DNA of 64,000 bases from Pyrenophora tritici-repentis. Lineage: Eukaryota; Ascomycota; Dothideomycetes; Pleosporales; Pleosporaceae. Location of the stretch: contig NC_089395.1 of NCBI RefSeq assembly GCF_003171515.1, positions 310,001-374,000 on the forward strand, given 5' to 3'. The position numbers were made by a program, and so were the translations under genes. Below are positions 28,987 through 61,329 of the stretch, piece after piece (position 1 is the stretch's first letter; each line of letters opens with the position of its first letter). Under the pieces are notes generated by a model. It saw only the letters and a list, made by a program, of their open reading frames with translations, searched no databases and was not told where the DNA came from.

Positions 28987-28994
28987 GGAGAGAG
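28987..28994. repeat. Left 8-bp target-site duplication of outer hAT
   Basis: GGAGAGAG lies directly before the transposon end and is repeated exactly at 34866-34873. Eight bp is the hAT duplication length. The flank is GA-rich, so part of the match could be chance. Confidence 0.85.
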
Positions 28995-29018
28995 CAGTGA
29001 TCGGAATGGTCTGGTCTG
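28995..29018 (+). repeat. Left terminal inverted repeat, outer hAT
   Basis: 24 bp beginning CAGTGATCGGAATGG, identical to the reverse complement of 34842-34865. The CAG/CTG-type start fits hAT ends. Confidence 0.95.
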
Positions 29019-29570
29019 ACTTGGTCTTGGTCTGGTCTAGACCGCCAAGACTTGGTCTGGTCTGGCGATTTTTTGAGACCGTGGTCGGACCGGTCTAGAT
29101 GATCGGACCGGTCCGGCTATAAATAGGTCCACGTGACTAGATCTTAGACTAATCTAGCCAGAAAATTTAGCACAATATGAGTCATTAAGATCAAGGTAAG
29201 TCTTCTACTTACATAGAACAATCAAGTCCTTAACAACCTACTTATATACTATTGTTATGGAGCCTTCAACACCAACCTCACCGTCCCCATCGAATATTAT
29301 AAGACTAGATTTAACGTCTCTTACTCCATCTCCTATCCCCACGTCATCACCCACCCCTATACTATCACCCACTCCTATTCAATATCACGAATCTCCAGAT
29401 GAGTTCGTGCAGGGCGGTATCACGTACGTGAAACGTGCAATAATTGCAAGGAAGGATTTCCGTCAAGGTACATCACACATCTGGAAGTACGGACTCCAAT
29501 ACATTCGAGATAGCGATAAGAAAGAGGTGTATTACTGCCATGAGTGCAGGGTTGGGAAGAGCAAGCAAGA

Positions 29571-29578
29571 GTTGTTTG
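29571..29578. repeat. Left 8-bp target-site duplication of inner hAT
   Basis: GTTGTTTG just before the inner element, repeated exactly at 32711-32718. It lies inside transposase codons of the outer element. Confidence 0.95.
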
Positions 29579-32500
29579 CAGACTTTCCAAAAAGCAAGTT
29601 GACTTGGATTACTTGCTTGACTTGCTTGGTTTAAACCAAGCAAGCAAGTCAAGTAAGAGCTGGGCAGCTAAGCAAGCAAGTCAAGTCAAGATACTTTGCT
29701 TGCTTGGCTTACTTGGTTTACTTGGTTGTTTTAGCGTTACTGTGATGAGGGTGCTAAAACTGCTGTACGGTAGATGTCGCGATGGTTTTGAAGTGTTGCA
29801 GTTGCCTCGGTTGAGTCCCAAACAGGCTAAGCGGCTATCAAATAACGTTAGCCTTAGTCTAGCGCATTGCTCCAATCTCGACGTACGCCTGTCTAGAAGC
29901 CTATCGCAATGCAGTATCCCCTATAGCAACGCGTTTTCCAGTGATTTATACTGCCCTGATACCCCCAATATGGCCAAACGTCGCCTACCACAAACTTCTG
30001 CTCGGAGCAAACGTACGAAAGTAGCCGCTGCCACCAACAACGTCGCCTCAACTCCTGAGGCTTCACCTGAGCCTGCATCTAAGCCTGCATCTAAGCCTAG
30101 ACCTCAGCGTCGATCACCTCGCAAAACCCTAGCTGCCGCAAGCCAGGCTAACGCCTCGCCGCCAATACCTACCTTCGAGTTGCAGTTCTTAGAGTCGCAG
30201 GCGGAGGCTGAGATTGTCGCGCCCACCGAGGGCAGCCGAGCTGGCACGGTGGCTACAACTGAGGCTGGAGAGGGTGGTCAGGATGAGACAAACAGCGCAC
30301 TAGTTGAGAACTTTGACGGCATTGACTGGGCACGTTTACCTGATTTTATCAAGCCATTGGCGCGTTCTAAGCGCCCAAAAAGTTGGATCTTTCAGTATGG
30401 CTACCGCGTTGTTGAGCGCCATGCTACATCTCGAATCTGGTTTGTGTGCAAGTACTGCCATGTACACAAAACTATCGACGCTGGCCGTGGTGGTTTGTTT
30501 AACATTACTCAGGCTACAACCTCAGCAGCCACCCATCTCAGCCAACCAAAGCCTGGCCACAACCTTACGAAAGATGGCCCAAAGTTAGCGCAGAGAGCTC
30601 GAGGCCAGCTGTCGTTGCGGCAAGCTTTTGACGCTGGTTTAGACGTACAACAAAACACTGCTAACGCGTTTGGAAACTTCGACGTAGAGGGCTTTCGAAC
30701 AGCCACTGTCATGTGGCTTGTTAACCGAAACCACCCGCTCAGCGAACTTACGACGCCTGATTTTAGAGAGATGATGAGATTTGCCAACCCAGAGGCAGAG
30801 GCAGCGTTGTGGGTAAGTAATACCAGCGTTTCTACCTTTGTGATGAGGTTGTTCCGGTCTATACGACCGCAAGTTATCGACACCCTGTCAGGCTCAGTAA
30901 GCAAAATACACGTAAGCTTTGATGGCTGGACAACAAAGGGTGGTAAACGTGGCTTCTTTGGAGTAGTCGCTCACTTTGCCGACGCAGCTGGAATAATACG
31001 AGACTTACCAATCGATCTGCCTGAGCTCGCTGGCGCCCACACCGGTGAGGCTATTGCCAAAGCTATCTCGACGACGCTCTCAGCATACGGAATAACAAGC
31101 GACCGATTAGGCTATTTTGTACTCGACAACGCTACCAACAACGACACTGCGATCGCCGCGCTCGCGCGCGAGTACGAATTTGAGTCCGCTCACCGGCGCC
31201 TCCGCTGCAGTTGTCACACGCTTAACCTCATCGGCCAGGCTATTATATTTGGCACCAACAAAGACGCCTACGGCAACACTCAAGAGCAGTACAATACCGA
31301 GGAGCAGTATATGCGAGAGTGGCGGAAAGATGGCCCTATTGGAGTGCTAGTTGACGTCATCAACTATATCAAAACGCCGCAACAGTACGAGCTTTTTCGT
31401 GGCTACCAGCGCCTTGCCAACAACAACCTGCCTGCTGAAGGGCGTCTCAAAGTACTCGAGCCAGTCAAGCCTGTCGTCACTCGCTGGAACTCATACTATG
31501 CTGCTTTTGAGCGCGCTACCAAGCTTCAAGCCGCGTATAACTTGTACGCTGAGCATCATATCAATAGGGTTATCCTTGAAGATGCGCACGCTGCGCAGCG
31601 GAATAATAAGCGGCCCGACGCCCCAAACTGGATGAGATCAACTGGGCTCCGAGCTGCTGACTGGGCGGTGATTGCAGAGTACCAGGACTGCTTAGAGCCG
31701 CTCAAGTACGCCACAAAACGCCTCGAGGGACGCTCTAAGGATGGCAAATACGGCGCAATCTATGAGGTTATACCCGTTTTTGAGTACGTACTCAGCAAGC
31801 TTGAGGCCCGGGCGCGCCCGTTCGAGCACGTCGACTTCAACGCTCATGCCGAGGCTCCAGAGGATCACCTCAACGTCAACCTCCGCGCCGCGTGGAGCAA
31901 AGCCAACGACTACTACAACAAGCTCGACGACTCGCCCGCTTACTACGCCGCTGTTTGCCTACACCCGTACTACAAGAACTACTGCGATGTGGCGTGGGCA
32001 GACAAAGCTGATTGGCTTACTAGTGCCAACGCGTCGTTCCAACAGCTTTGGGCGGCATACAAACCTCAACGAGCACGCCAGCGGTATACAACTGCGCCGA
32101 GTAGCAACAACATAGACGAGGCAATTATTGCTATACTTAGCCGCAACAATGACCGAGAGGCTCCACTTGACGAGTTTGAGCGCTGGAAAACACAAGAGCC
32201 GCAGTGGACGCAGGAGCAGTACAACGCAGATGGAAATCCTGTCCAATACTGGATACAACTACTGCCGAAATACCCGCATTTAGCGCAGTTTGCAATCGAT
32301 ATCATGACTATCCCAGCATCAAGCAGCGACTGTGAGCGCCTCTTCAGTGAGCTTGGCGACCTTCTTGAACCTAAACGACGTGCTCTGGGCAGTGAGCTAC
32401 TCGCAGCTCTTCAATTAGTAAGGTCATGGGTGCGAGCTGGTTATAAACCGTACAACTGTAGCGAGGCTAAGCTTTCAGATGAGCAGCTTGTAGGAGATTA

Positions 32501-32710
32501 CAACATACTAGAGTGGAACACTGAGTTTTGGTAATTTGTATGTAGCTTAATCTCTTTGTAGTAGTCAAGTAATCCAAGTACTTGCAAGTAATACAAGCAA
32601 GTCAAGCAAGTAAAAAAATCACCCCAAGCAAGTCAAGTAAAGCCTATGTTTGAACCAAGCAAGTCAAGTTTAGAGCGGTGACTTGCTTTACTTGCTTGTT
32701 GGAAAGTCTG
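29579..32710 (+). mobile_element. Inner hAT DNA transposon, 3.13 kb, nested in the outer one
   Basis: Terminal inverted repeats of 21 bp with one mismatch: CAGACTTTCCAA-A/C-AAGCAAGT at 29579-29599 and inverted at 32690-32710. It is flanked by the 8-bp duplication GTTGTTTG. Both ends, about 140-170 bp deep, are packed with the motif AAGCAAGTCAAG and its inverse CTTGACTTGCTT, including a near-palindrome centred on TTTAAA at about 29632. These are probable transposase-binding sites. It carries one long intact transposase frame. The end sequences and transposase differ from those of the outer element, so this is another hAT lineage, not a self-insertion. Confidence 0.95.
29970..32534 (+). CDS. 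Inner hAT transposase
   Basis: Cut-and-paste transposase of the hAT superfamily, 854 residues from ATG 29970. The frame is open back to 29544, through the element's left end, but the Lys/Arg-rich start MAKRRLPQTSARSKRTK is the better N-terminus. It is followed by a Pro/Ala/Ser-rich linker with SKPASKPRPQRRSPRK. A BED-like zinc finger has WFVCKYCHVHK (C-x2-C) and THLSQPKPGHN. The catalytic core includes HVSFDGWTTKGGKRGFFGV, RLGYFVLDNATNNDTAIA, RLRCSCHTLNLIGQAIIFG and KPVVTRWNSYY. The C-terminal hAT dimerisation domain is IPASSSDCERLFSELGD and ELLAALQLVRSWVRAGY. No stop or frame break is seen, so the protein may be functional. Confidence 0.95.
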   Translation: MAKRRLPQTSARSKRTKVAAATNNVASTPEASPEPASKPASKPRPQRRSPRKTLAAASQANASPPIPTFELQFLESQAEAEIVAPTEGSRAGTVATTEAGEGGQDETNSALVENFDGIDWARLPDFIKPLARSKRPKSWIFQYGYRVVERHATSRIWFVCKYCHVHKTIDAGRGGLFNITQATTSAATHLSQPKPGHNLTKDGPKLAQRARGQLSLRQAFDAGLDVQQNTANAFGNFDVEGFRTATVMWLVNRNHPLSELTTPDFREMMRFANPEAEAALWVSNTSVSTFVMRLFRSIRPQVIDTLSGSVSKIHVSFDGWTTKGGKRGFFGVVAHFADAAGIIRDLPIDLPELAGAHTGEAIAKAISTTLSAYGITSDRLGYFVLDNATNNDTAIAALAREYEFESAHRRLRCSCHTLNLIGQAIIFGTNKDAYGNTQEQYNTEEQYMREWRKDGPIGVLVDVINYIKTPQQYELFRGYQRLANNNLPAEGRLKVLEPVKPVVTRWNSYYAAFERATKLQAAYNLYAEHHINRVILEDAHAAQRNNKRPDAPNWMRSTGLRAADWAVIAEYQDCLEPLKYATKRLEGRSKDGKYGAIYEVIPVFEYVLSKLEARARPFEHVDFNAHAEAPEDHLNVNLRAAWSKANDYYNKLDDSPAYYAAVCLHPYYKNYCDVAWADKADWLTSANASFQQLWAAYKPQRARQRYTTAPSSNNIDEAIIAILSRNNDREAPLDEFERWKTQEPQWTQEQYNADGNPVQYWIQLLPKYPHLAQFAIDIMTIPASSSDCERLFSELGDLLEPKRRALGSELLAALQLVRSWVRAGYKPYNCSEAKLSDEQLVGDYNILEWNTEFW

Positions 32711-32718
32711 GTTGTTTG
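32711..32718. repeat. Right 8-bp target-site duplication of inner hAT
   Basis: GTTGTTTG, identical to 29571-29578. Confidence 0.95.
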
Positions 32719-34841
32719 TCATCAATGGCACTTCTAGGATCCGGAATCACCTGGAACAGAAGCACCAGATTGATCCCCAGAGTGGCATCAAGCGAAAGGG
32801 TTCTGTACGGAAGTCTATAATCGACCAGCAAAAGGATGGGGCTGCTTCCAGCATCTTTTTCTGGAAGGAGTCAGTAGAGAAGTTTAAAGAGCTTCTAATT
32901 CGTTGGATTGTGTACTGCCATATCGCCTTCTTTCAATTAGAGAACCAGTACTTTCGTGAACTACTCCTCTTTTTAAATCCGGCACTACTCAACCACCTCC
33001 CGAAGGCTGCGAAGACTATCCGAAGCTGGGTAATGAATGCATTCATATCGAAGAAGCAACAGCTTAGGGAGGACCTACACCATTCACGGAGTAGGATCTC
33101 TATCTCCTTTGATCTCTGGACTTCACCAAACCCTTACGCTATCCTAGGCGTCGTCGCTATGTGGATTGATACTACCGGCATGCGACGTGTTACCGCTTTA
33201 GGTATGCGACGTATATACGGCGAACATACTGGAGAGAATCTTGGATCGGTGGTCCTTGAATTGCTGGAAGAATACGACATTAGCGGAGATCAGATTGGAT
33301 ACTTTATGCTGGATAATGCCTCGGCAAATGATACCGCTGTTGAGTTTATACTCAAGGATCTCTGCCCATGGATGAAGTCAAAACAACGTCGTCATCGCCG
33401 GCTGCGTTGCTTGGGCCATGTCATCAACCTCTGTTGCCAGGCGTTCCTTATGGGGCGAAACTGTGAGAAGTATCTTGCGAAGCTGGAGAAGCATCATCAA
33501 CGTGGCGACTATACGAAGGTGGAAGAGCTCTGGAAGAAGTTCGGATGTTTGGGTCGTCTTCACAACCTGGTGCGATACATCAGGCTTACTCCACAACGGC
33601 GTGAGGAGTTTGCTACAATTATTATCGGCGGAGATCTTTCGCAATTCGACGGGCTTGAGCTTATCCAGAACAACTCGACCCGCTGGAACTCATGGTTTTA
33701 TTCGATTACACGTGCATTAAATGTTCGAGAACGTTTAGAGCTCTTCTCGGCTCGTCATGTACCTGGAAAGGGCTCCGTAGGGATCGCGAACTTTAAGCTT
33801 GATGGACAGCACTGGTTTGAGCTTGAAAAGATTGAACTCGCTCTCAAAGACTTCTATGCTGCAACTTTGCTTTCTGAAGGTAAGAAGACGTCACTTGCGG
33901 ACTGGTTTTCAACTTTGGACTGCCTTCTCCGGGAGATAAGCGAGACGAAGGATCACTACCACGACATCCACACTGAGGACGATAACAACTTTACATGGAA
34001 GTACCTTCAAGGCTGCGCTGATGCTGCTTGGTTAAAGTGCGTTGAGTACTATAACAATCAGCAGCTGAATTGGCAAAATCGATTCCCTGAAGATACTGAC
34101 CTTCCACCGGCATATTATGCGGCTCAAATCCTTGATCCATATCGCAAGTGGGGATGGTTCAGGCAAGAGTGGGTTCTTCATGGCGACGAAGAGAAGAAGA
34201 GGTGGTTTGAAAACGCACAATTAGCGGTGAAGCATCTCTGGGAGACAGAGTATAAGGGAAGGTACCCTGTCGAGATGCTGCCACCACCAGCCAGGAAGGA
34301 GAGAGATCCTGACCCAGCATTTGATCGCCAGCGGGAACATAAGCGCATTCGAATAGACGCTCCAGTTTCTACAACTGATTTGTATGAACAATACATCTCT
34401 ACTGACCGGCTTCATAACGAAGAGGCAGGTTGCAATGAGGCTATTGCGTACTGGCTATCTCGCTACGACTCCCAACGAGATCTCGCTCGCTTCGCTCTAG
34501 ACATGTTTGCGATCTCGCCTATGTCGGATGAATGCGAACGTCTTTTTAGTAGCGCGAAGCTTACTATCGTCGATCGCCGTGGTAGGCTGAAGGCAGATAT
34601 TATAGAAGCGTGCGAGTGTCTCCGGGCCTGGTATGGAAAGCCCCAAGCTGAGGGGAACAGCGATATCGAGGATAGTGAGAACGAAGACGACTAGATTGAC
34701 AGTCAGTAGTAAAACACATTTCCTCGGCTTCCTTCTTTGCTTCAGCCTCATTCTTGGCGGTCTTGTTGGTCGGACCGGTCTGGTCGGACCGGTCCTTATG
34801 TAAGCACCTGGTCTGGTCTGGTCTGTACCCTCAGACCAGAC

Positions 34842-34865
34842 CAGACCAGACCATTCCGATCACTG
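34842..34865 (-). repeat. Right terminal inverted repeat, outer hAT
   Basis: Exact reverse complement of 28995-29018, ending in ATTCCGATCACTG. Confidence 0.95.
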
Positions 34866-34873
34866 GGAGAGAG
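34866..34873. repeat. Right 8-bp target-site duplication of outer hAT
   Basis: GGAGAGAG, identical to 28987-28994. Confidence 0.85.
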
Positions 34874-35386: not shown

Positions 35387-35394
35387 TTGCTTGT
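35387..35394. repeat. Left 8-bp target-site duplication of MITE
   Basis: TTGCTTGT, repeated exactly at 35553-35560. Confidence 0.92.
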
Positions 35395-35552
35395 CAGAGA
35401 TGTCAACAAGCAAGTCAAGCTGGCTTGATTCTTATCGATTGCAGATCACAGACCATTCTCTGGGACGTGCCACTGTGCACGAGCCTCTATATTGTCTGTG
35501 ATCTGCAATCGATAAGAATCAAGCCAGCTTGACTTGCTTGTTGACATCTCTG
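35395..35552. mobile_element. 158-bp foldback MITE, hAT type
   Basis: Two perfect 59-bp inverted arms (35395-35453 and 35494-35552), beginning CAGAGATGTCAACAAGC, surround a 40-bp loop. The 8-bp duplication TTGCTTGT on both sides places it in the hAT class. It has no coding capacity. Each arm contains AAGCAAGTCAAG, the subterminal motif of the inner hAT 2.7 kb away, and the outermost bases CAGA are the same. It may therefore be mobilised by that transposase or a close relative (inference). A single-stranded form would fold into a long hairpin. Confidence 0.95.
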
Positions 35553-35560
35553 TTGCTTGT
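35553..35560. repeat. Right 8-bp target-site duplication of MITE
   Basis: TTGCTTGT, identical to 35387-35394. Confidence 0.92.
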
Positions 35561-59702: not shown

Positions 59703-61329
59703 ATGCGCGCAGCATTGGTCAATCACATAGCCGCCAATCGAGCTTCTACGATGTTTTCCGCAATTCGAAGAATCCCATATCCGACAAGACGCGCCGCGAC
59801 ACAATTGCGCACAGTCGCGACACAATCTCAGAAGCGCGCGGGTGATATATCAGACGCTTTTGCGTCGCTTTCTGGCCACGACTTCAAGCCTCTAGCGCCT
59901 GGATATGCCGCCATCAAAACCCGACTGATCCAGGGATACGAAGACCAAGTACGGGAATCATGGGAACGCCTCCTCCGAAGCCTGCAAGAAGAGATACCGC
60001 TTATCGTCGAGCTCGGTAGCAAGGTTATCCCAGATATCGATTTCAAGGACATTGACAATGCGCCCGAAGCCTTTAGCAGTGAATTACGGAAGAGAGGCGT
60101 AGCGGTTGTGAGGGGTGTAGTATCAGAGAAAGAAGCGCTGCAGTGGAAAGAGGACTTGAGAGAGTACATCCGCCAGAATCCTCACACCAAGGGTAAGTCA
60201 CACCCAAACTACCCATATACCCATGATTAACAGCTTCACAGCATACCCCACCGACAACCCCCAAGTCTTTGAACTCTACTGGTCGCGCAGCCAGCTTCTT
60301 GCACGCGGCCATCCGAACCTCCTCAAGACACACCGTTTTCTCATGTCATACTGGCACAGCGCAAACCCCCATGTCCCCCTCTCCACAAAACACCCCATAA
60401 GCTACGCCGACCGCCTCCGCATGCGTCAACCCGGCGACGCCAAATTCGCACTAGGACCACACGTCGACGGCGGCAGCGTAGAACGCTGGGAGGAAGAAGG
60501 CTACGGGCTCGGAAAAGTCTTCGACGCAATCTGGCGCGGGAAATGGGAGTCGTTCGACCCCTGGGAAGCGACATGTCGTCTCCCCGTCAACGCCGACCTG
60601 CACCAAGGCGTCGGCGCCTGCAACGCTTTCCGCATGTTCCAAGGCTGGCTCTCCCTCTCCACCACAGGCCCACACGAGGGAACCCTCCTCGTCAACCCGC
60701 TCCTCGCAAAAGCAACAGCTTACTACCTCCTCCGTCCTTTCTTCTCCCCTAAACGCGGTGTCACACAGCCCAACGCGCAAATAGCCTCGGAAGCGGACGC
60801 TACAGCACACACGTCGTCTTTCCTAGACCCAGATAACTGGATACTAGATTCACCGCAAACCTCCTGGATGCACGGCGCTACACCAGGCCACGGCCAGGAA
60901 CTCTCTCACCTCCTCCACCCGCACCTCCGTCTTCAGGAAAGTATGATTCATATTCCCACTGTTCGACCAGGCGATTACGTCGCCTGGCACTGCGATACCA
61001 TACACGCGGTTGACAAGACACATGCTGGCTCCGCTGACTCGACCGTCTTGTATATCCCCGCTTGTCCCATGACGGAAGATAATGCGAATTTTCTTGTGAG
61101 GCAGCGCGGGTGTTTTGTTGAGGGTACACCCAGCCCGGACTTTGGCGGCGGCGTGGGTGAGAAGGGACATGTGGGGCGGGCGGGTGTGGAGGATATGGAT
61201 GCATTGGTCGGGGAGGAGGGGTGTAGGAGTTTGGGGTTGGCGGAGTGGGATAGTGATGCTGAGGGGTTGGGTCCTGGGGAGAGGGTTATTTTGGATAGGG
61301 CGAATAAGATTTTGGGGTTTTATGATTAG
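59703..61329 (+). CDS. DUF1479 protein, predicted 2OG/Fe(II) oxygenase-like
   Basis: Exons 59703-60192 and 60242-61329 join in phase to 525 residues; an in-frame ATG at 59751 would give 509. The start (MFSAIRRIPYPTRRAATQLR) is Arg/Ala/Thr-rich and looks like a mitochondrial presequence. The rest matches fungal and bacterial DUF1479/YbiU proteins: LKPLAPGYAAIK-like start, ELRKRGVAVVRGVVSEKEAL, FELYWSRSQLLARGHPNLL, HVPLSTKHPISYADRLRMR. ALGPHVDGGSVERW carries an H-x-D metal motif. The distal His probably lies in GDYVAWHCDTIHAVD, and YIPACPMTEDNANFL follows. The cupin-type fold and iron binding are known for relatives; the substrate here is unknown. The C-terminal 70 residues are Gly/Glu-rich. 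Confidence 0.87.

Follow-up and report, generated by a model that had tools for sequence, protein, structure and literature searches.

Nested young hAT transposons in Pyrenophora tritici-repentis, and target site duplication swaps in the family of the outer element

How did one hAT transposon come to lie inside another in the genome of Pyrenophora tritici-repentis, and what have the two families done elsewhere in that genome? The locus lies in a window of 64,000 nucleotides (the whole stretch of DNA that was analyzed), and its features are listed in Table 1. The sequence-only reading had proposed a complete hAT nested in another, each with its own ends and 8-bp duplication, and we confirmed this. 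The outer element (28995-34865) is interrupted by the inner element (29579-32710); without the inner element it measures 2,731 bp, and the composite is about 5.9 kb. The perfect 24-bp inverted ends of the outer element and the duplicated GGAGAGAG were as described, base for base, and the inverted match continues to 33 nt at 91%. The 3,132-bp inner element likewise has the 21-bp inverted ends with one mismatch and the duplicated GTTGTTTG that had been reported. The target site duplication (TSD) of the outer element sits in GA-rich low-complexity DNA and, taken alone, is weak evidence; it is sound on the strength of the other outer copies in the genome.

Table 1. Positions of the nested elements and of a neighboring MITE in the window.
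Feature	Position	Strand	Remark
Left TSD of outer element	28987..28994	.	GGAGAGAG
Left TIR of outer element	28995..29018	+	same end on 95 left tips in the genome
Outer transposase frame, 5' part	29257..29578	+	as far as the inner insertion, within the BED-like finger
Left TSD of inner element	29571..29578	.	GTTGTTTG; native outer sequence
Left TIR of inner element	29579..29599	+	
Inner transposase	29970..32534	+	854 aa, intact, hAT dimerisation domain
Right TIR of inner element	32690..32710	-	
Right TSD of inner element	32711..32718	.	GTTGTTTG
Outer transposase frame, 3' part	32719..34694	+	
Right TIR of outer element	34842..34865	-	
Right TSD of outer element	34866..34873	.	GGAGAGAG
Neighboring hAT-type MITE with TSD	35387..35560	.	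158 bp (35395-35552); TSD TTGCTTGT

The outer element inserted first and the inner element second, as had been proposed. We found that 19 of the 33 fully read 2,731-bp outer copies were base-identical to the outer element of the window minus the inner element and one TSD copy, which bears out this order of events. GTTGTTTG was found once in the uninterrupted outer copies read, and these copies are paralogous empty sites for the inner insertion. The outer transposase frame has 765 codons and is interrupted by the inner element at about codon 105-107, where the CxxC and HxxxxH motifs of a BED-like finger come to lie on opposite sides of the insertion. Both transposases had been called nearly intact and both elements autonomous-looking. 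This held for the inner element, whose frame is intact, but not for the outer copy in the window, because the inner element splits its frame.

Based on these results, we conclude with high confidence that the nest arose when hAT transposons from two lineages each inserted recently by the cut-and-paste route. In this order of events, an outer element of 2,731 bp first landed on contig C6, where the locus spans C6:338.9-345.0 kb, duplicating GGAGAGAG, and a 3,132-bp inner element with its own intact 854-aa transposase then entered the outer transposase gene, duplicating GTTGTTTG. By analogy with hAT biochemistry, each transposase presumably binds subterminal repeats and brings both ends together before cutting the element out and integrating it at an 8-bp staggered cut. 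The outer copy in the window can no longer make a full transposase. With its outer ends intact, the composite of 5.9 kb may still be mobilized in trans, as judged from outer copies that moved again with a MITE in their frame.

It is very unlikely that the nest is an assembly artefact in which two high-copy families were wrongly joined. Both families are high-copy and nearly identical, which would favor repeat collapse, but all four junctions are base-exact with their own perfect 8-bp TSD, which is not expected from a misjoin, and the PacBio reads, described in the available part of PMC5913888 as averaging 15 kb at 75x and combined with optical maps, exceed the composite in length. Even less credible is one old element with an acquired second transposase, moving as a unit: outer copies made composite by a MITE insert have indeed transposed again, but only one outer copy with exact tips has the inner element at the window position, the other 5,871-bp copy carries it elsewhere and reversed, and the 19 base-identical copies described above equal the uninterrupted sequence.

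Both families are large and young, and each has spread through the P. tritici-repentis M4 genome to dozens of nearly identical copies. The 24-bp outer tip (at most two mismatches) occurred 194 times in the genome and the 21-bp inner tip (at most one mismatch) 97 times, so that the ends of both elements are shared by many other copies. The control patterns (reversed, for the outer tip) occurred 0 times in the genome, and we therefore rejected chance ends or TSDs. We read 192 of the 194 outer tips (95 left, 93 right and 4 further right) and obtained 89 paired copies, 57 of which were read whole, besides the window copy. The 765-aa frame is kept in 30 of the 33 fully read 2,731-bp copies. The 97 inner tip matches were paired by script into 44 pairs; 34 of these are exactly 3,132 bp, three sit in a complex cluster at C1:5.63-5.65 Mb, and at least 36 inner copies are full-length and near-identical. 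The candidate copies scored in the family comparisons were 40 of 99, 40 of 108, 40 of 336 and 150 of 565. TSDs were perfect in 57 of the 89 outer pairs, with one difference in two more, and 32 of the 89 have unequal halves. Both flanks were read for 14 of the 44 inner pairs, with perfect TSDs in 10 and unequal TSDs in 4. The dozens of near-identical copies, the frames mostly intact where read and the perfect TSDs support the recent mobility that had been claimed for both hATs.

The 33 copies of 2,731 bp have 11 variant sites, five of which are G>A, three of these after T. We rejected RIP as the main mutator, since only one of the outer copies compared (L018) is clearly biased, with 9 of its 18 substitutions being TpG>TpA.

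Both proteins have hAT features and, as had been proposed, they are from different hAT lineages (25% identity over 721 columns). The 8-bp duplication that serves as a hAT criterion is present in the outer family (the window copy and the 57 perfect pairs) and in the inner family (the 10 perfect copies). The hAT dimerisation domain PF05699 was found in the outer protein of an uninterrupted copy (L015; 30.1 bits versus a cut-off of 21.4) and in the inner protein (56.9 bits). The elements thus resemble Hermes and the hAT superfamily in having an 8-bp TSD, short inverted ends and a single transposase with this domain. The inner protein also matches Hermes chains by sequence (E 2e-11 to 4e-10 in a PDB search) and contains the hAT motifs SFDGWT, VLDNATNND and DCERLFS. 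The outer protein differs from Hermes in that a PDB search by sequence gave no relative. Pfam yielded little for it besides the dimerisation domain, and its zf-BED match (12.8 bits) is below the cut-off of 20.6. In 31 aligned rows, the outer finger residues C94, C97, H118 and H123 are invariant or almost so, and D239 (FDLWTS), D306 (LDNAS) and E714 (ERLFS), which we take to be the DDE catalytic residues in hAT motifs, are invariant.

The nest in the window has counterparts in which the two families met again. An outer element lies inside an inner one at C2:4917580-4923450 (TSD GCCTCTCG), and therefore the active periods of the two families overlapped. A second inner-in-outer nest is found at C6:1149049-1152180 (TSD ATAACGAA). 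The host element has unequal TSD halves both in the outer-in-inner nest and in the second inner-in-outer nest. Two inner copies, at C1:54384 and C10:2015327, border outer sequence on one side only, have unequal TSDs and were kept outside the nest count. There were two intact inner-in-outer nests and one outer-in-inner nest, where uniform insertion would give 0.56 nests (P about 0.02 for at least three). We rejected a special attraction between the families: the excess is modest, the events are few, and they could equally reflect selection against insertions into genes.

Outer copies whose frames are broken transposed again, and therefore did so in trans. Three interrupted outer copies of 3,067 bp have three different perfect TSDs. 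The MITE in the window, 0.5 kb from the nest, is identical in sequence to MITEs that lie within outer copies at other loci.

The relatives of the outer transposase suggest that its family came by horizontal transfer. The protein is 88% identical over 732 aa to a protein of Fusarium oxysporum (P0010), which belongs to another fungal class and was compared as protein records only; this identity is what suggests the transfer. The F. oxysporum complex was the sister group in a quick tree of 52 rows chosen from the 120 listed of 337 matches, in which many relatives are metagenome rows and from which partial matches such as P0105 (Cryomyces) were left out. Judged by protein similarity only, the family probably reached the species by a transfer involving Hypocreales. 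Vertical inheritance from an ancestor of Dothideomycetes and Sordariomycetes seems improbable to us. It would accommodate a partial match (86%, 17% of the query) named Cryomyces minteri, presumably a Dothideomycete, and metagenome relatives that could belong to Dothideomycetes, but the 88% identity across two classes contrasts with 85% for a host gene in the window compared with that of another species of the same genus, and the 120 listed of 337 matches include no Pleosporales name other than P. tritici-repentis. A limited search of the literature on Fusarium hAT families and horizontal transfer found no paper on the outer family.

The unequal TSDs of the outer family can be read as a record of rearrangement. 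TSDs serve as barcodes, and each swapped pair is therefore a base-exact rearrangement that can be checked. The 32 outer copies with unequal TSDs include three closed swaps that are reciprocal (a/b, b/a). In each of them the partners are inverted copies on the same contig, and these swaps point to putative inversions of 11-53 kb. Outer pairs on C4 and C5 form two open chains (a/T, T/b) with the shared TSDs TTGTCGGG and GACGCAGC; 15 of the 32 copies are left without explanation.

All of the swaps probably come from ordinary recombination between copies (NAHR), with none from alternative transposition. The three closed swaps between inverted copies are a signature of recombination, contig C15 has a head-to-tail junction of the kind that direct copies on C7 would produce by recombining, and two successive recombinations can also yield open chains. 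However, a single reversed-ends transposition would account for each open chain, which otherwise takes two recombinations, and the outer halves of the chains pair with no other tip among the 192 of 194 read. On both C4 and C5, one new 8-bp TSD is common to the two breakpoint elements and the other halves are unmatched among the 192 tips, as expected of reversed ends. Reversed-ends transposition would also call for a progenitor in which two copies lay in direct orientation, and for loss of the DNA between them. The open chains fit reversed-ends transposition without proving it.

We tentatively put forward a broader account, which we consider possible rather than probable: a hAT family horizontally acquired from Hypocreales would have multiplied in a burst to about 95 copies, rearranging the genome both passively and actively. 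In the active mode, its transposase would have joined ends of two neighboring copies, by reversed-ends transposition of the type seen in maize Ac/Ds, and so made at least the inversions C4:3,083,576-3,085,385 and C5:2,418,732-2,423,250. The element impala is a Tc1-mariner transposon and not a hAT. It gives a fungal precedent, in Fusarium, for alternative transposition (available part of PMC8225341), and a thin search of open papers, together with that part of PMC8225341, found no case of hAT reversed-ends transposition in a fungus. As in maize Ac/Ds (available parts of PMC8225341 and PMC3744419), two inverted outer pairs each share one TSD, the inversion enclosing one element of the pair and the other lying immediately beyond it. 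In maize the progenitor alleles are known; in P. tritici-repentis two recombinations could mimic the pattern. In Atlantic cod, hAT-derived repeats also lie at inversion breakpoints and are explained by ectopic recombination (available part of PMC12368964); those are tandem MITEs, in contrast to the full-length elements with TSD swaps in P. tritici-repentis.

P. tritici-repentis was already known for weak RIP and for transposons that amplified recently, and young hATs nested in one another are ordinary in such a species. The available part of PMC3538342 describes recently amplified, near-identical DNA transposons, inefficient RIP and a MITE family with more than 200 members in P. tritici-repentis; of the five families richest in reads, three are hATs. 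It also describes H3L, a transduplicating hAT that carries histone H3, is about 5.6 kb long and has a 2.3-kb form. The families studied here come from the same species as H3L and, like the DNA transposons described there, are near-identical and recently amplified; H3L, as described, carries histone H3. Frames of at least 100 aa between the inverted ends in the window were limited to those of the two transposases and some short overlapping ones, and no histone H3-like ORF was found among them. The nest and its families open two questions. By what route did a transposon whose protein is 88% identical to that of F. oxysporum copies reach a Dothideomycete, and to what extent does a single recent hAT burst account for chromosome plasticity in the wheat tan-spot fungus?

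The nest of two hAT elements described in the sequence-only reading was borne out, both as an observation and in its core interpretation. The window lies at C6:310001-374000 in a genome of 40.9 Mb, and the TIRs and TSDs re-read in the sequence placed both elements at exactly the coordinates proposed. The claim that both transposases were nearly intact held for the inner element but not for the outer one, whose frame is interrupted within a BED-like finger, after its CxxC and before its HxxxxH; in an uninterrupted outer copy (L015), the same transposase is a single 765-aa frame. Both proteins scored above the PF05699 cut-off, and the inner one matched Hermes. Outer residues D239, D306, and E714, located in the usual hAT motifs and presumably catalytic, were invariant across 31 rows of an alignment. 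The two transposases were 25% identical and therefore belong to different hAT lineages, as had been claimed. Each element had private short repeats in the terminal 200 bp at both ends, with none in the middle stretch tested.

Features in the window, and inverted pairs of outer copies elsewhere in the assembly (contigs C1 to C5) with exchanged or shared TSD halves; a, b, and T label the 8-mers flanking the two ends of a copy
Feature	Position	Description
Outer element	28995-34865	perfect 24-bp TIRs; TSD GGAGAGAG on either side
Inner element	29579-32710	21-bp TIRs, one mismatch; TSD GTTGTTTG on either side
Inner transposase	29970-32534	single intact frame, 854 aa
Outer transposase frame	start 29257, cut at 29578, resumes 32719-34694	broken by inner element
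hAT-type MITE, 158 bp	35395-35552 (35387-35560 with TSDs)	perfect TSD TTGCTTGT
DUF1479 (Gig2-like) host gene	60223-61329	368-aa open frame, full domain; yardstick
Closed swap (a/b, b/a)	C1:7600937 and C1:7614907	inverted pair, one contig; implied inversion 11.2 kb
Closed swap (a/b, b/a)	C1:6813342 and C1:6869608	inverted pair, one contig; implied inversion 52.8 kb
Closed swap (a/b, b/a)	C3:2146217 and C3:2160125	inverted pair, one contig; implied inversion 11.0 kb
Open chain (a/T, T/b)	C4:3080679 and 3085386	inverted pair; 1.8 kb between
Open chain (a/T, T/b)	C5:2416001 and 2423251	inverted pair; 4.5 kb between

Both sets of ends proved to be high-copy when searched against the whole genome. 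Outer tips were counted 194 times, and the 95 left and 97 right tips that were read formed 89 pairs, with TSDs that were perfect in 57 and differed by one base in two more. Forty-four pairs spanned exactly 2,731 bp. Among the 33 of these read whole, 19 were identical to the window's outer element minus the inner one, 30 kept the full transposase frame, and the mean pairwise difference was 0.00043 per site. With respect to the inner insertion, these uninterrupted outer copies serve as paralogous empty sites. The inner family had 44 tip pairs and at least 36 full-length matches (window copy included), with perfect TSDs in 10 of the 14 copies having both flanks read. A domain search found at least four more frame size classes of hAT-domain genes (843, 859, 882, and 902 aa), with runs of identical scores, and the burst therefore extends beyond these two families. 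A published account of Pyrenophora tritici-repentis (Ptr) already describes recent DNA transposon amplification, with three hAT families ranking with those richest in reads, and inefficient RIP (PMC3538342). In one outer copy (L018, C3:2105481-2108369) of an otherwise RIP-poor family, 9 of 18 substitutions were TpG>TpA, a pattern consistent with weak RIP-like mutation of one copy or more.

Each family had inserted into the other. An inner element carries an outer element of exactly the reference sequence at C2:4917580-4923450 (TSD GCCTCTCG), and at C6:1149049-1152180 a second inner element lies in another outer copy (TSD ATAACGAA), at a different position and in the opposite orientation from that in the window; both host elements have unequal TSD halves. 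The active periods of the two families therefore overlapped. Nesting between them was modestly enriched over chance. Within a young hAT burst, the window's nest is unremarkable.

Elements without a full transposase also moved. The tip of the 158-bp MITE occurred 206 times in the genome (~103 copies), and MITEs identical to the window copy sit inside L019 and L026, two members of the outer family. The tips of this MITE are similar to inner-family tips (CAACAAGCAAGT), so it may be mobilized by an inner-type transposase. MITEs with 8-bp duplications were present in many size-variant outer copies. All three 3,067-bp outer copies carried the 158-bp MITE at one common offset and had three distinct perfect outer TSDs, and the two read whole had two MITEs in common within the transposase frame. 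Another pair (L017 and L025) had a different MITE site in common and different outer TSDs. Given the interrupted frames, shared MITE sites, and different outer TSDs, copies without a full transposase were thus re-mobilized. The outer ends of the window composite are intact, so it could likewise move again in trans. Two further outer copies, L028 (C4:2080210) and L029 (C1:6813342), had in common an insert of 674 bp, whose duplication is 14 bp long and is neither TA nor an 8-bp TSD.

TSD halves were unequal despite exact tips in 32 of the 89 outer pairs. Eight 8-mers were common to left and right tips of different paired copies without a common flank; the chance expectation was 0.33 identical pairs per 103 simulated insertions (maximum of 4 in 2,000 runs). 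In both open chains, T faces the partner element at one copy and points away from it at the other. Recombination and reversed-ends transposition leave contrasting marks in maize (PMC8225341; PMC3744419). Two successive recombinations could also yield the open chains, and we therefore consider reversed-ends transposition a rather doubtful source of them. Misassembly at repeats can mimic TSD swaps. Isolate M4 was sequenced with PacBio (75x) and optical maps to a total of 40.9 Mb, and chromosomal rearrangements between Ptr isolates are already reported in the same paper (PMC5913888). Fifteen of the 32 unequal copies were left without explanation.

Several other outer copies had unusual structures. 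One (C15:10883-13613) joined the left flank of C7:287820 to the right flank of C7:223306, with identity over the 60-68 bp of flank read. A tandem duplication or circle would give such a head-to-tail junction of a 64.5-kb C7 interval (stretch compared, C7:220576-287820), as would an assembly variant. A piece near the left end of C15 matched C7 at the expected offset (100%). The piece near the right end was a dispersed repeat with one copy at the expected C7 offset (99%); its best match elsewhere was another C7 copy, and support on this side is therefore weaker. A copy with two left tips (C10:2149070-2152000) lay mid-palindrome, its arms 1.47 kb or longer and 251/251 bases matching 1.2-1.5 kb out, and is either a real inverted duplication or a long-read artefact. 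At C9:2162563-2166871, one TSD pair encloses a full copy and, immediately after it, a partial right part, an internal tandem duplication. One or both TSD halves and flanks of C3:140107 and C9:189252 recur at other outer copies. Copies at C3:5147, C8:2387328, C16:9964, and C27:2022 (three complete, the last read as a right end only) had a common TSD and common flanks and represent duplicated segments.

The outer transposase resembled proteins from another fungal class. Among the matches listed, its closest named relatives outside Ptr, a Dothideomycete, were from Fusarium oxysporum, a Sordariomycete (88% over 732 aa), with further Fusarium species and Hirsutella next in similarity. In a quick tree of 52 chosen rows, the 10 Ptr rows formed one clade (support 100), joined by three metagenome rows (support 82), and the sister group was eight rows from the F. 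oxysporum complex and other Fusarium; the remaining named members of the surrounding 31-row clade were Hirsutella and F. proliferatum, and the tree's long branches were elsewhere. The single yardstick gene, DUF1479, was 85% identical to its P. seminiperda counterpart, and Fusarium names were absent among 120 listed of its 2,115 matches. The inner family's relatives look different from those of the outer family: among 120 listed of 244 matches, the named ones outside Ptr were from Stemphylium, Alternaria, and P. teres, at 46-54% identity where query coverage was at least 89% and reaching 78% in shorter alignments, and one metagenome row among the matches listed reached 83%. The cross-class protein similarity suggests horizontal transfer of the outer family, and a partial match named Cryomyces (86% over 17% of the query) makes other routes conceivable. 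What these elements add beyond the nest is this cross-class similarity, together with TSD halves that serve as barcodes of rearrangement.
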